The position numbers and the translations under genes are program-made. Below are positions 13,656-18,772 of a DNA stretch of 64,000 nt, in pieces. Source of the DNA: Aeromicrobium piscarium (lineage in GTDB: Bacteria; Actinomycetota; Actinomycetes; Propionibacteriales; Nocardioidaceae); the NCBI RefSeq assembly GCF_007421815.1, contig NZ_VLNT01000002.1, positions 268,634-332,633 of the forward strand. The letters run 5' to 3'. Each line of letters opens with the position of its first letter. The first letter of the stretch is position 1. The notes below the pieces were generated by a model. That model was not told the DNA's origin and did no database searches. It saw only the letters and a program-made list of their open reading frames with translations.

Positions 13656-13922
13656 TCAGTCGGCTTGTTCGCGGAACTCGACGTGGACGGTGCGGATCGA
13701 CAGCAGGACACGCTCGCGCAGGGGCGGCGGCGCCGTCTCGCTGCACGAGCGCGAGAGCAACGCCTTGACGAGCACATCGATCTCGTACTCGGTCAGGCAG
13801 TCGCGGCAGTTGTCGATATGCGCCTGGATCTGCTCGCAGCTGGCGTCCTCGAGTTCATGGTCGATGAACAGGTAGAGCTTCTGGAGCGCTTCCGTGCACT
13901 CGGGTCCGTCGCACTGGCTCAT
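13656..13922 (-). CDS. rsrA: Zinc-binding anti-sigma factor, RsrA/RshA type
   Basis: The 88-residue protein has the ZAS zinc motif His-x3-Cys-x2-Cys as HIDNCRDC (His35, Cys39, Cys42), with further cysteines at 4, 9 and 29. RsrA/RshA holds SigR/SigH inactive under reducing conditions. Thiol oxidation forms a disulfide, expels zinc and frees the sigma factor. It lies 70 bases downstream of sigH on the same strand, as in streptomycetes and mycobacteria. Confidence 0.93.
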   Translation of the reverse strand: MSQCDGPECTEALQKLYLFIDHELEDASCEQIQAHIDNCRDCLTEYEIDVLVKALLSRSCSETAPPPLRERVLLSIRTVHVEFREQAD

Positions 13923-13992: not shown

Positions 13993-14649
13993 TCATGCGT
14001 CGTCACCCGCCTTCGCGACGGCCATGCCGCGGCCCCGGGCGTAGTCGGTCAGCATCTCGCGCAACTGGCGACGGCCACGGTGCAGGCGCGACATCACGGT
14101 GCCGATGGGCGTGTCCATGATCTCGGCGATCTCCTTGTACGGGAAACCCTCGACATCGGCGAGATAGACCGCGTAACGGAAGTCCTCCGGCAGCGCCTGG
14201 AGCGCCTCCTTGACGTCGCTGTCAGGCATCCGCTCGAGGGCCTCCATCTCCGCGGACTTCAGTCCGCTCGACGTGTGCGCCTCCGCGGCGGCTACCTGCC
14301 AGTCCTCGATCTCCTCGGTGACCTGCTGCGGCTGACGCTGCTTCTTGCGGTACGAGTTGATGTAGGTATTGGTCAGGATCCGGTACAGCCAGGCCTTGAG
14401 ATTGGTGCCGGGCTTGAACTGGTGGAACGAGCTGAACGCCTTGGCGTAGGTCTCCTGGACGATGTCCTCGGCATCGGCGGGATTGCGCGTCATGCGCAGC
14501 GCCGCCGAGTACAGCTGATCCAGGAACGGCAGAGCATCGGCCTCGAACCGCGCTTGGCGCTGTTCGGGGGTTTCCTCGTTGAGTACGACGTCGTCGGTGG
14601 CCATCTCCTCGAAGTCTACGGGGATCGGCCTCTCAGGACACGCGAGCAT
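13993..14649 (-). CDS. sigH: ECF sigma factor SigH/SigR (thiol-oxidative stress)
   Basis: The 218-residue sigma factor has region 2 around [20 protein letters not shown] and [19 protein letters not shown], and region 4 around [20 protein letters not shown]. It should direct polymerase to thioredoxin, mycothiol and protease genes after disulfide stress. A perfect SigH-type promoter lies just upstream, so it is autoregulated. ATG 14649 has AGGAGG six bases before it. A second in-frame ATG at 14604, also preceded by purines, would give a protein 15 residues shorter. Confidence 0.94.
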
Positions 14650-14671: not shown

Positions 14672-14697
14672 AACGCGCGGACCCGCCGGCCTATTCC
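14672..14697 (-). promoter_or_regulatory. SigH/SigR autoregulatory promoter
   Basis: On the minus strand, GGAAT (14697-14693), exactly 18 bases, then GTT (14674-14672) match the SigR/SigH consensus GGAAT-N18-GTT perfectly. The start point should fall near 14665, just before the AGGAGG that serves ATG 14649. The -35 lies in the final codons of yedK. Confidence 0.88.
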
Positions 14698-15401
14698 GCC
14701 GCGACCGGCTCGACCAGTTCGGGACCGTTGTTGCGCACGTTGTTGACCGCGAGCGAGACCGGCCAGGCGTCGAGCACCCCGGGCGTGGCGGGGACGAGTT
14801 CCGGCAGCAGCTGTGCGCCGGGCACGTCGCGATCCAGCCAGTCGTCACCGATGCCGGAGGGAACCAGCAGCGGAGCGCGGTCGTGCAGCCGTCCGTCGTC
14901 ACCCTCCGCCGACGTGGTCAGGATGCTGTAGCTGAGCACCCAGGTGCCCTCCGGGTCCTTCCAGAACTCGTAGATCCCGGCGAGCCCGAGTCCTGCACCT
15001 TCCCGGCCGGTGAGGTAGAAGGGCTGCTTGCGCGGTTTCGCTCCATCGGCACCGGCCTGGGGCTGATACCACTCGTAGAACCCGTCGGCGGGCACCACGG
15101 CACGACGAGAGGCGAAGGCCCTCCGGAAGGACGGCTTCTCCGCGACGGTCTCAGAGCGGGCGTTGATGAGCTTGTTGCCGATAGAGGGGTCCTTGGCCCA
15201 GGAGGGGATCAGTCCCCAGCGCGCCGTCACGACCTCTCGCCAGGATCCCGACTCGTCCCGCCGGCCCACGATGAGAGGCTCAGGCTTGGTGGGCGCGGCG
15301 TTGTAGTCCGCCTCGGCCTCGACGTGCAGGTCGCCCAGTCTCGCCTCGAAGTCCCGTTCCAGTTGCGACGACGTTCGTGACGTCGCGTATCGGCCGCACA
15401 T
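14691..15401 (-). CDS. yedK: SOS response-associated peptidase, YedK/HMCES family
   Basis: The 236-residue protein begins MCGRYA, placing the essential cysteine at residue 2 after Met removal. The conserved NAAPTKP, FYEWYQP and RLHDRAPLLVP follow. YedK forms a covalent crosslink with abasic sites in single-stranded DNA and protects them during replication. Its end overlaps the sigH promoter. Its position between sigH and aroA matches Rv3226c in mycobacteria. No LexA box is obvious at its start. Confidence 0.93.
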   Translation of the reverse strand: MCGRYATSRTSSQLERDFEARLGDLHVEAEADYNAAPTKPEPLIVGRRDESGSWREVVTARWGLIPSWAKDPSIGNKLINARSETVAEKPSFRRAFASRRAVVPADGFYEWYQPQAGADGAKPRKQPFYLTGREGAGLGLAGIYEFWKDPEGTWVLSYSILTTSAEGDDGRLHDRAPLLVPSGIGDDWLDRDVPGAQLLPELVPATPGVLDAWPVSLAVNNVRNNGPELVEPVAAE

Positions 15402-15435
15402 GTCGTCATGGTGCCAGCCCCATCCAGCGAGTCGC

Positions 15436-15464
15436 CTGACGGATGTGGAGTCCTTGCCTAGGAT
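15436..15464 (+). promoter_or_regulatory. Candidate housekeeping promoter
   Basis: CTGACG (15436-15441) and TAGGAT (15459-15464) are spaced 17 bases apart, a fair match to the -35/-10 consensus. It points toward the gene at 15497. Confidence 0.5.
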
Positions 15465-15496
15465 GAGAGGCAGACGACGCCGACCCCGGGGACAGT

Positions 15497-16948
15497 ATGA
15501 GAGCCGACGACGCCCAGCGCACTTCGCAGCGCAGCGATGAGGCGTTGGTCAGTGCTGCCCAGGCGGGGGACGCCACCGCTTACTCAGCGCTCTTCGATCG
15601 TCACCGCCCGGCTGTCGAGCATCTCGCGGTCTGCCTGACCCGTGAGCGAGCCTCCGAGGCGCTCGTCGGCACCGTGTTCGCCGAAGGGCTGTCCCGCGTG
15701 CTCGCCGGAGAGGCCGACGATGCGGCGATCCGCCCATGGCTGCTCGGACTCACGCTCGATGCCCACGGCGCGGCGTCTCCCGACTCCGCGGCGTCGCGTG
15801 CCTGGCAGAGCCTGACACCGGTTCATCGCACGGTCCTCTGGCACACGGTCGTCGAGGAGGCTCCGGCCGCCGAGACGGCCCTCGTGGCCGGCGTCCGGCC
15901 CCAAGAGATCCCCGCGCTCCGGGCCGGAGCGGAGACCGCCCTGCGGACGGCCTATCTCACTCGCCAGCGCGAGGATGCCGCCGCCCTGCATGCGCGCACC
16001 CATCTGGACGATCTCTCGGCCCACGCCGACGCGTGCGCCACGTGCCTCGGCCTGTGGTGGGCCGTCGAGGACCTCACCCATGCCCACGAGCTGGCCGCAG
16101 CGACCCTCGGGCCCGTGGCGGGACGCTACCTGCGCGAGCCCACCTCACGGCGCGCCGCTCCTGTGCGTCCGCGCTGGGTGCCCGCGGTTCTCATCGCCAC
16201 CGCCGCCACCCTCCTGGCGGCCACGAGCGCGGGCGCGCTCGCAGTCGCCCAGTGGGGTCCTTCCAGCGTCCCCACCGCGTGGGGTGGTCTTCCGTCCGTG
16301 CCGAGCGCCAGCGCCTCTCCCACACCGGATCCCGAGACCCCTGAGGAGCCCACGCCGGAGAGCACCGAACCCACCACGGCCGAGCCCTCGCCGGACGACG
16401 AGGACACGCCCGAACCCTCGACCGAAGCCCCTGCGCCCTCGACACAGCCACCCGATGCTCCTCCACCGAGCGCGCCGCCCGCCGCCATGGGCGTCGGCTT
16501 CGCCTTCGGCGATCCGGACCGGCTCGCCGAAGGCGGCCAGCGCCTCGTCCGCATGAATCTGCAGTTGGTCGGCGAGCAGGCCTCGCCGGGCGCCCGACAG
16601 GTCACGGTGCGCTTCGATATCGACACGACCTTCAGGTTCTCCGGCGCCTCCGGCCTCTCCTGCGCCCCGTCCTCGAGTGCAGTGACCTGCACCCGGACGC
16701 TGCGGCCCGGTGAGACCGCTCGGGCCTCGGTGACGGTGGTCGCCGATGAGGTCCGTGGCCGGGCCCACGTGTGGTCGAGCGATACGTCGGGATCGCCGCG
16801 CGGCCACTCCTTCTCCTTCGGCCCGTGGGCCGGCGGGGAGACCCCACCGCCCAAGCCCGGGCCCGTCCCCGAGGACACCCCCGGGCCCAGCGGCGGCGAC
16901 GCCCCGACCTCGGGTGATGACGACACGCGTCGTCCAACCACGGAGTGA
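15497..16948 (+). CDS. ECF sigma-like protein fused to zinc finger, membrane helix and outer domain
   Basis: This 483-residue protein joins several modules. Residues 15-75 resemble sigma region 2 (ALVSAAQAGDATAYSALFDR), and about 105-155 resemble region 4. An anti-sigma-like His-x3-Cys-x2-Cys follows as HADACATC (176-183). A membrane helix lies at about 228-250, then a Pro/Glu/Thr-rich linker (about 260-330), an Ig/CARDB-like outer domain (about 333-440) and a second Pro-rich tail. It looks like a sigma factor and its membrane anti-sigma in one chain, perhaps released by proteolysis or sensing the envelope. Region 4 is poorly conserved, so DNA binding is uncertain. Confidence 0.72.
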   Translation: MRADDAQRTSQRSDEALVSAAQAGDATAYSALFDRHRPAVEHLAVCLTRERASEALVGTVFAEGLSRVLAGEADDAAIRPWLLGLTLDAHGAASPDSAASRAWQSLTPVHRTVLWHTVVEEAPAAETALVAGVRPQEIPALRAGAETALRTAYLTRQREDAAALHARTHLDDLSAHADACATCLGLWWAVEDLTHAHELAAATLGPVAGRYLREPTSRRAAPVRPRWVPAVLIATAATLLAATSAGALAVAQWGPSSVPTAWGGLPSVPSASASPTPDPETPEEPTPESTEPTTAEPSPDDEDTPEPSTEAPAPSTQPPDAPPPSAPPAAMGVGFAFGDPDRLAEGGQRLVRMNLQLVGEQASPGARQVTVRFDIDTTFRFSGASGLSCAPSSSAVTCTRTLRPGETARASVTVVADEVRGRAHVWSSDTSGSPRGHSFSFGPWAGGETPPPKPGPVPEDTPGPSGGDAPTSGDDDTRRPTTE

Positions 16949-17020: not shown

Positions 17021-17506
17021 ATGACGCTTCTGCGCACCGTAGCCCGGCCCATGCTCGCCACTATGTTCGTCTACGGCGGCACGATGGCGCTGCGCAACGC
17101 CTCCGCGATGGCTCCCAAGGTCGAGCCGATCGCGGACGCGGCGCGCTCGATCGCCCCTGCCGCCCCCATCTCGGCCACGAACCTCGTCCGGCTCAATGCC
17201 GCCGTGCACGTCGCCGCCGGACTGGCCTTGGCCACCGGGCGCTTCCCGCGCGCGAGCGCCCTGGCGCTCGCGGCGACGATGCCCGCCACCACAGCAGTGG
17301 GACACCAGTTCTGGAACGAGACGGATCCGGATGCGCGACGCAACCAGGCGATCCACTTCGCCAAGAACGTCTCGATGACCGGTGGTCTGCTGTTGTCGAC
17401 CCTCGACCCTGACCCCAAGAAGCGCTGGATCGGCGCCCGTGCCAAGAAGAAGGTGGTCGACACCGGGCACGCCATCGCCGATCAGGTCGATGACCTGCGG
17501 AGCTGA
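17021..17506 (+). CDS. DoxX family membrane protein
   Basis: The 161-residue protein has DoxX features: RPMLATMFVYGGTMALRN near the N-terminus, LVRLNAAVHVAAGLALATGR in the middle and HFAKNVSMTGGLLL in the last helix, giving about four membrane segments. DoxX proteins are linked to quinone- and redox-stress functions, as in the mycobacterial membrane oxidoreductase complex. A TAAGAA box six bases before the ATG suggests a leaderless message. aroA starts three bases after its stop. Confidence 0.85.
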   Translation: MTLLRTVARPMLATMFVYGGTMALRNASAMAPKVEPIADAARSIAPAAPISATNLVRLNAAVHVAAGLALATGRFPRASALALAATMPATTAVGHQFWNETDPDARRNQAIHFAKNVSMTGGLLLSTLDPDPKKRWIGARAKKKVVDTGHAIADQVDDLRS

Positions 17507-17509
17507 GGC

Positions 17510-18772
17510 GTGACCGACTGGCCCGCTCCCGTTCGCAGCCGGCCCCTCGAGGCCGATGTCACCATCCCGGGCTCGAAGTCGCTCACCAACCGCGTACTCG
17601 TCCTCGCCGCGCTCGGCGAGGACGAGTCGCGTGTCGAGCGACCTCTCGTCTCGCGCGACACCGACCTCATGGCCGCGGCACTTGAATCGCTCGGGGCCCA
17701 GATCGAGCGCCAGGCACAGCAGTGGACCATCCGTCCCATCGAGTTCGGGGATGCCCCAGTCGAGATCGATTGCGGCCTGGCCGGTACCGTCATGCGCTTC
17801 GTTCCTCCCGTCGCGGCCCTCGGACACGCCCCGGTGACCTTCGACGGCGACCCTCGGGCGCGCGAACGGCCGATGACAGGCACCATCGCCGGCGTGCGAG
17901 CCCTCGGCGCGGAGGTCGATGACCACGACCGAGCCAGCCTCCCCTTCACCGTGCGTCCGCAGCCGGATGCCCGAGGCGGCGAGATCGCGATCGATGCATC
18001 GGCATCGAGTCAGTTCGTCTCGGCACTGCTTCTCGTCGGCGCACGGTTTCCCGACGGGCTGCGGATCCGGCATATCGGCGATGCCCTCCCCTCGCAGCCT
18101 CATATCGAGATGACCATCACCCAGCTGCGCGAGCGCGGCGTGCGGGTCGATGCCGAGACCTCCAGCTGGACCGTCCATCCCGGTCTGATCGCCGCACGGG
18201 ACGTGACGATCGAGCCCGACCTGTCGAATGCCGGGCCCTTCGTCGCAGCGGCCCTGGTCACGGGCGGGAGGGTTCGCGTCCACCAGTGGCCCGAGGACAC
18301 CGACCAGGCCGGCGATGCCTGGCGGTGGATCGTTCCCGCCTTCGGAGGCTCGGTGCATCGCGACGACGACGCCCTGGTGTTCTCGAGCGACACCGCACTC
18401 ACAGGCGTGGATCTGGATCTCCACGATGTCGGCGAGCTGACGCCGGTGGTCGCGGCGCTCGCGGCCCTGGCCGACGGCCCCTCGACGCTACGAGGGATCG
18501 CCCATCTCCGGGGGCACGAGACCGACCGACTCGCCGCGCTCGCCACCGAGATCAACGCCCTCGGAGGTGAGGTCACCGAGACCGCCGACGGCCTGCGCAT
18601 CGTGCCGCGGCCGCTGCACGCAGGGGTCTTCGGCACCTACCACGATCACCGCATGGCCCACGCCGCGGCGGTGCTGGGGCTCGCGGTCCCCGGTCTGGTG
18701 GTGGCGGACATCGAGACCACGGCGAAGACGTACCCGGACTTCCCCGCCGACTGGACGGAGCTGTGCCGATGA
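17510..18772 (+). CDS. aroA: 3-phosphoshikimate 1-carboxyvinyltransferase (EPSP synthase)
   Basis: The 420-residue enzyme transfers enolpyruvate from PEP to shikimate 3-phosphate, the sixth step of the shikimate pathway. The PEP-site PGSKSLTNR (about 20-28), the GTVMRFVPP loop, DPRARERPM, and LRGHETDRLAAL and DHRMAHAAA near the C-terminus are all present. It starts with GTG right after doxX and overlaps rsgA by four bases. The same aroA-rsgA pairing is seen in mycobacteria. Confidence 0.96.
   Translation: MTDWPAPVRSRPLEADVTIPGSKSLTNRVLVLAALGEDESRVERPLVSRDTDLMAAALESLGAQIERQAQQWTIRPIEFGDAPVEIDCGLAGTVMRFVPPVAALGHAPVTFDGDPRARERPMTGTIAGVRALGAEVDDHDRASLPFTVRPQPDARGGEIAIDASASSQFVSALLLVGARFPDGLRIRHIGDALPSQPHIEMTITQLRERGVRVDAETSSWTVHPGLIAARDVTIEPDLSNAGPFVAAALVTGGRVRVHQWPEDTDQAGDAWRWIVPAFGGSVHRDDDALVFSSDTALTGVDLDLHDVGELTPVVAALAALADGPSTLRGIAHLRGHETDRLAALATEINALGGEVTETADGLRIVPRPLHAGVFGTYHDHRMAHAAAVLGLAVPGLVVADIETTAKTYPDFPADWTELCR

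Follow-up and report, generated by a model that had tools for sequence, protein, structure and literature searches.

The fusion gene and its neighbourhood

The window analysed here, a stretch of 64,000 nucleotides from Aeromicrobium piscarium, contains on its forward strand an open reading frame (15497-16948) with an ATG start and no internal stops, which encodes a protein of 483 aa. It is part of the gene order SRAP (-), fusion (+), DoxX and aroA, which is conserved across Aeromicrobium and establishes positional orthology between the short form found in the window and the long form found in most species of the genus, where an intact ECF sigma lies between SRAP and doxX-aroA. The features of the locus, in window coordinates, are as follows.

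13656-13922, minus strand: RsrA/RshA-type anti-sigma gene (TIGR03988, E 1e-24)
13993-14649, minus strand: SigR/SigH-type thiol-stress sigma factor gene (TIGR02947, E 5e-106)
14691-15401, minus strand: SRAP (SOS response associated peptidase) gene, conserved upstream neighbour
15402-15496, no strand: 95-bp gap between SRAP and the fusion, from which the partner gene and promoter of long-form loci (~800-1600 bp) are absent
15497-16948, plus strand: whole gene, short form, a fusion of degenerate ECF sigma, anti-sigma zinc finger, membrane helix, Pro/Glu linker and beta domain (483 aa)
15530-15766, plus strand: sigma2 remnant, residues 12-90, with the fold of regions 2.1/2.2 retained and the acidic residues of 2.2 gone
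15764-15802, plus strand: deletion site, residues 90-102, without region 2.4 and the sigma2-sigma4 linker (~29 residues relative to long forms)
15788-15976, plus strand: sigma4 remnant, residues 98-160, a helix-turn-helix with a degenerate recognition helix
15989-16072, plus strand: anti-sigma zinc-finger core, residues 165-192, with H165/H169 and H176-x3-C180-x2-C183
16082-16135, plus strand: equivalent of helix 4 of the anti-sigma domain (ASDI), residues 196-213, still present (AlphaFold and alignment; role of helix 4 from PMC7406223)
16178-16252, plus strand: membrane helix, residues 228-252 (hydropathy)
16253-16480, plus strand: Pro/Glu/Ser/Thr-rich linker, residues 253-328
16487-16831, plus strand: outer beta-sandwich, residues 331-445, with conserved Cys389/Cys398 (AlphaFold strands, Foldseek)
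17021-17506, plus strand: DoxX-family gene, conserved downstream neighbour
17510-18772, plus strand: aroA, conserved downstream neighbour

The union of sigma-type segments, anti-sigma zinc finger, membrane helix and outer beta domain after a Pro/Glu linker in one chain, as read in the initial annotation, was confirmed by alignment, AlphaFold and hydropathy. A single hydrophobic segment was found, with its hydropathy maximum at residues 232-250, and the AlphaFold model (built on an alignment of 26 relatives) is of low confidence in the region holding the membrane helix and linker, after which it places a beta-sandwich at 333-445. The closest folds to the outer domain in Foldseek are adhesin and CBM2-type cellulose-binding domains (E 2e-4 to 9e-4). 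The transmembrane helix and Pro-rich extracytoplasmic extension are those of the ECF48/52/53 kind of fusion. ECF sigma/anti-sigma fusions of that kind have already been described in Actinobacteria, for example SCO4117 (PMC8999054, PMC5826349), thus the architecture, which had been regarded as unusual, is present yet not in itself new. Likewise, the adjoining thiol-stress sigma factor locus is as had been stated, a SigR-RshA pair, but its link with the fusion is only positional and is common to long forms.

Homology of the N-terminal part to sigma factors was recovered by profile and structure. Pfam gave no hit to the window protein with the E cutoff relaxed to 10, nor to its three close orthologues (E 0.1), and NCBIfam gave only weak partial matches to ECF sigma models over residues 4-88 of the window protein (best E 6e-6), while a profile of the four short-form orthologues picked out ECF sigma chains among PDB entries (E 3e-4). 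The initial annotation would have abandoned its reading had a sigma fold been missing from residues 1-155; in the AlphaFold model, residues 11-160 form a two-domain sigma fold, with four sigma2 helices and a sigma4 helix-turn-helix (HTH) at block-mean pLDDT of ~84-97. An ECF sigma2 domain at the N-terminus is thus identified by the PDB profile match, the fold model and the alignment to long forms. In Foldseek the sigma part matched SigW/RsiW, AlgU/MucA, CnrH and BldN with probability 1.0, but with E of only 3e-3 to 9e-3, whereas ECF sigma matches to the long-form model start at 6e-7. Judged from these weaker matches, the modelled sigma fold is present but eroded, and both sigma regions are degenerate; the region 2- and region 4-like segments of the initial annotation hold as to sigma2 homology and two-domain fold, though not as intact regions with a Pfam domain. 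The confident sigma4 HTH in the model may be partly borrowed, since long forms make up most of the underlying alignment. Net charge of the sigma part was dropped as a discriminator of short and long forms, being the same in both.

Losses in the short form

Close orthologues of the window protein were found in 4 of the 49 genomes of the genus, the window's included, and each represents a different species. A search of genome contigs with the window protein returned as its sole match an 82% relative from Aeromicrobium sp. PE09-221 (NZ_MIJB01000009.1). Long forms linked to SRAP are not confined to Aeromicrobium: other genera of its family carry them, as does a genus with genomes of 8-9 Mb from another family of the order. 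In the SRAP tree the four short-form species constitute one clade (99/93) that is nested among long-form Aeromicrobium; therefore the short form and its losses are derived. The window's own genome (G000) also carries two full-type ECF fusions in tandem (L126, G000:C2:75000-92000) and a third at G000:C1:8015-9418.

The sequences were compared within a set of 82 distinct fusions (73 long-type, 4 short and 5 from the genus g26). Long forms, at 530-600 aa, have normal-looking sigma2, linker, sigma4 and zinc finger, followed by a hydrophobic region, a Pro-rich linker and the same outer domain as the short form. The residue that we take to be equivalent to sigma70 D403, numbering being assigned by motif in sigma region 2.2, is Asp in 73 of 73 long-type fusions and that of E407 is acidic in 70 of 73, yet neither is so in any of the four short forms; the window protein reads SEALVGTVF where the long form has ADDLVSEAF. 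The four short forms have 27 aa between the end of region 2.3 and sigma4, against 30-35 for the five g26 genomes and 48-65 (mostly 56) for the 73 others, and the sigma2 helix at residues 78-90 of the window protein is cut back relative to its long-form counterpart (78-98). Lys and Arg in the 30-aa stretch of region 2.4 number mostly 5-9 in long-type fusions versus 1-2 in short ones. In the window protein and G031 the recognition helix of sigma4 is degenerate, being still full-length though altered; in G036 and G022, 13 of its residues are missing. By sequence, none of the short forms retains an intact region 2.2, region 2.4 and sigma4 recognition helix.

In the anti-sigma part, HADACATC occupies residues 176-183 (H176-A-D-A-C180-A-T-C183), exactly where it had been placed, and the H-x3-C-x2-C signature is invariant in 26 of 26 aligned relatives; of the residues by which the initial annotation proposed to judge its reading, those of the zinc site are therefore conserved, while the region 4 recognition helix is degenerate or deleted in short forms. 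Pfam zf-HC2 has no match in short forms. Helix 1 of ASDI is mostly deleted, and the Cys that in a full ASDI precedes the His by 26 residues is absent (spacing 13 vs 26), so that helix 1 plus a first zinc ligand ~26 residues before the motif is not found. The corresponding AlphaFold helices are 164-168 and 170-176 in the window protein and 193-206 and 212-224 in the long form; helices 181-192 and 196-213 follow in the window protein. H165, H169, H176, C180 and C183 are all invariant within the short-form clade. Either H165 or H169 could substitute for the missing Cys ligand in the predicted zinc site, and the short-form protein is expected to bind zinc. In a coevolution analysis of ECF/anti-sigma pairs, the surface by which sigma4 binds DNA is matched with ASDI helix 1, and the surface by which sigma2 binds polymerase with helix 4 (PMC7406223), thus the lost pieces form a matched pair, and sigma2 and helix 4 are what remains.

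The losses extend to the flanking DNA. Long-form loci (for example, L012, L011, L018 and L041) carry between SRAP and the fusion a divergent gene whose product, of ~205-235 aa, contains a GGDEF-like C[EH]DPLT.L motif; neither Pfam nor NCBIfam named it above threshold, and as GGDEF_2 of Pfam matched only at E 0.09 the name GGDEF-like is tentative. It was present, and divergent every time, in 77 of 77 long-form spans (55 distinct), and is likely a functional partner or target of the long-form fusion. It is absent from the SRAP-fusion spans (96-154 bp) of the four short forms and was not found anywhere in their genomes, whereas three long-form controls matched at E 1e-31 or better. Upstream of long-form fusions, and reading toward the fusion gene, stands the motif GDRACG-N16-RTGACG, in 48 of the 55 distinct spans under the strict pattern and in 54 with relaxed ends, with a spacer of exactly 16 and none at other spacers from 10 to 23. 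In a first set of 45 regions it occurred in 40, against a mean of 0.08 of 45 after shuffling. GRRAC as first box is the expected form of an ECF -35 element. The motif (for example, in the L026, L018 and L064 spans) is a probable ECF autopromoter, and it was found in none of the four short forms. A GTGACG-N17-GTGACG in G036, possibly a promoter remnant, was set aside, its spacer departing from the otherwise exact 16. No sigma-70 promoter was found when the DNA upstream of the window gene was scanned; a TAnnAT-like hexamer, seen by eye at the same position in the four short forms, is recorded with no claim attached.

A genome-wide search found between one and three additional copies of the ECF motif in each long-form genome and none in reversed-pattern controls. 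As the contexts of these further matches look mixed, no regulon is claimed. Motif copies with a similar spacer (GAGACG...GTTACG.ATCRTGACGCG-like) occur in three long-form genomes (L147, L150 and G032:C2:185761) and are possibly a shared second target.

Selection and the role of the short form

The short-form gene is under purifying selection and does not behave as a pseudogene: whole-gene dN/dS is 0.17 between G000 and G031 and 0.22 between G036 and G022. For the same two pairs, respectively, it is lowest in the zinc finger (0.04 and 0.08), followed by values of 0.04 and 0.17 in the membrane helix, 0.14 and 0.16 in sigma2, and 0.12 and 0.21 in the beta domain, and is highest among folded parts in sigma4 (0.39 and 0.25). 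The zinc finger is thus constrained about equally to, or more than, the outer domain, and sigma4 is the weakest folded part. By bootstrap, zinc finger plus helix 4 are more constrained than sigma4 in G000-G031 (P 0.007), but not clearly so in G036-G022 (0.31); sigma4 itself has a dN/dS of less than 1, with an interval that overlaps the intervals of other domains.

From these losses and constraints we infer that the short form has lost transcriptional activity: it is very likely no longer a promoter-specific sigma. The reading we favour, with good probability, is that of a dismantled ECF switch whose zinc-finger/membrane/beta-sandwich half, plus a sigma2 stub, has been kept for a non-promoter role; that this role is one of a cytoplasmic interaction module is less certain than the loss of promoter-specific function. 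The ancestral long form would have been an ECF sigma tethered to the membrane and restrained by the zinc finger of its own chain; once released (by proteolysis, from the likeness to ECF48/52/53), it would activate its own GDRACG-N16-RTGACG promoter beside the divergent GGDEF-like gene. One Aeromicrobium clade then lost both promoter and partner gene, and its chain shed the parts of sigma for RNA polymerase binding (2.2), -10 recognition (2.4 plus linker) and -35 recognition (4.2), together with anti-sigma helix 1, which normally covers sigma4. The sigma2 fold, H-x3-C-x2-C, helix 4, membrane helix and outer beta domain remain under selection, as a sigma2 stub presumably packed on a zinc-bearing helix pair and connected via a single membrane helix to an outer beta-sandwich that may bind glycans. 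The output side was dismantled and the input side retained, and the most likely role is that of a membrane-bound protein-interaction module, not a transcription initiator. Against this reading stand the confident sigma4 HTH of the model, with the reservation given above, the full-length though altered sigma4 helix of two of the four short forms, the sigma4 dN/dS of less than 1, and the small size of the clade, at four species.

A special case of the interaction-module reading is a trans-acting inhibitor, in which the stub, freed of its own sigma4, restrains another ECF sigma, for example SigR or one of the intact fusions encoded elsewhere in its genome. Conservation is highest in the anti-sigma part, sigma-fold domains have a precedent in protein binding (PhyR), and candidate clients are at hand, with three other full-type fusions in G000 and at least one in every short-form genome; however, the deleted ASDI helix 1 is the contact to a client sigma4, and we regard this case as rather unlikely. 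We give a similarly low probability to the outer beta-sandwich alone being what matters, with the protein acting as a membrane-anchored envelope or glycan-binding protein and its cytoplasmic part being a passive relic. Conservation of the beta domain in long and short forms (dN/dS 0.12-0.21) and the CBM2-like fold match (E 5e-4) agree with such a protein, but a passive relic would hardly explain zinc finger, helix 4 and membrane helix being constrained about equally to, or above, the beta domain, nor five His and Cys residues (H165, H169, H176, C180, C183) being invariant in the clade.

One option of the initial annotation, a sigma awaiting proteolytic release, is probably wrong for this copy, as core-binding residues, region 2.4 with linker, the -35 helix, promoter and partner gene are gone. 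An active membrane-held ECF sigma, released by proteolysis and directing RNA polymerase to different promoters, would fit the predicted sigma fold, the weak but real sigma2 profile match and the release mechanism proposed for ECF48/52/53 (PMC8999054), yet it would have to function without the acidic core-binding residues of 2.2, region 2.4 plus linker and a recognition helix, 13 residues of which are deleted in two orthologues, and without autopromoter and partner gene; we consider it very improbable. A pseudogene on its way out, suggested by stepwise losses and by sigma4 being the least constrained folded domain, is at least as improbable, given that the frame stays open over ~465-483 aa in four species whose proteins share 43-82% identity and that overall dN/dS is 0.17 and 0.22.

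Membrane proteins that join an ECF sigma to its anti-sigma are widespread among Actinobacteria but poorly understood. The Aeromicrobium clade amounts to a natural dismantling experiment, in which the promoter and partner gene disappeared along with the surfaces that bind DNA and polymerase and the covering anti-sigma helix, and the sensor half stayed; and the concrete promoter and GGDEF-like partner gene of the intact relatives make signal, target and release directly testable. If the favoured reading is true, this is a rare case of a sigma fold retained for a purpose other than promoter recognition.

Known systems and a second truncated lineage

Among the nearest described systems is ECF52, of which SCO4117 of Streptomyces coelicolor is, per its description, the first characterised member (PMC5826349). 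It likewise joins ECF sigma, zinc finger, membrane helix, Pro-rich region and an outer carbohydrate-binding domain in one chain, and autoregulation has been proposed for it as for the long form here (PMC5826349); however, its own sigma part is intact and its neighbour is atrA, whereas the short form is without core-binding residues, 2.4, 4.2 and anti-sigma helix 1. Actinobacterial ECF48 and ECF53 share the C-terminal fusion, with a zinc finger and one or two membrane helices, and are thought to be activated by proteolysis (PMC8999054), but they are described as functional sigma factors. In IutY of Pseudomonas putida (ECF243), also a sigma fused to a membrane anti-sigma, proteolysis by Prc and RseP frees the IutY sigma (PMC8999054); unlike the short form it is a working sigma, in a siderophore system, with another periplasmic part. 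Class I anti-sigma domains (RsrA/RshA, RsiW, ChrR) have in common with the short form H-x3-C-x2-C, helices 3 and 4 and the link to a membrane helix, but not its lack of most of helix 1 and of the Cys 26 residues before the His. PhyR of Alphaproteobacteria resembles the favoured reading in that a sigma-fold domain serves protein binding, not promoter recognition, yet it is a soluble response regulator that binds NepR and has neither zinc finger nor membrane part; against the window protein its NCBIfam model matched only at a sub-threshold E of 0.18, and Pfam found no receiver domain. Among the papers searched, there was no account of a degenerate or decommissioned fused ECF.

A second case comes from the five genomes (L082-L086) of g26, a Propionibacteriales genus of family f2 with small genomes, whose fusions are without region 2.4, linker and most of the 2.2 acidic residues. 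Their sigma4 is more normal, and four of five keep the full zinc-finger spacing. At the loci checked for context they are not beside SRAP, thus they were treated as a separate case rather than as additional short forms. Full-type relatives exist in other genera of f2 (L087, L088), and the g26 truncation looks like an independent loss. A broader proposition, that a sigma lineage has turned from promoter recognition to a membrane-bound, zinc-finger-coupled interaction module (a 'pseudo-sigma') and that fused ECF systems tend that way, as g26 would illustrate, is tentative, and we rate its probability at somewhat short of even.

Partial erosion was also seen in the fusions L008/L039 (G052) and L027/L040 (G049), where region 2.2 reads AEDLLVLVY and AEDLTSLAY, basic residues are few in 2.4, and sigma4 is canonical; these are possible intermediate stages.
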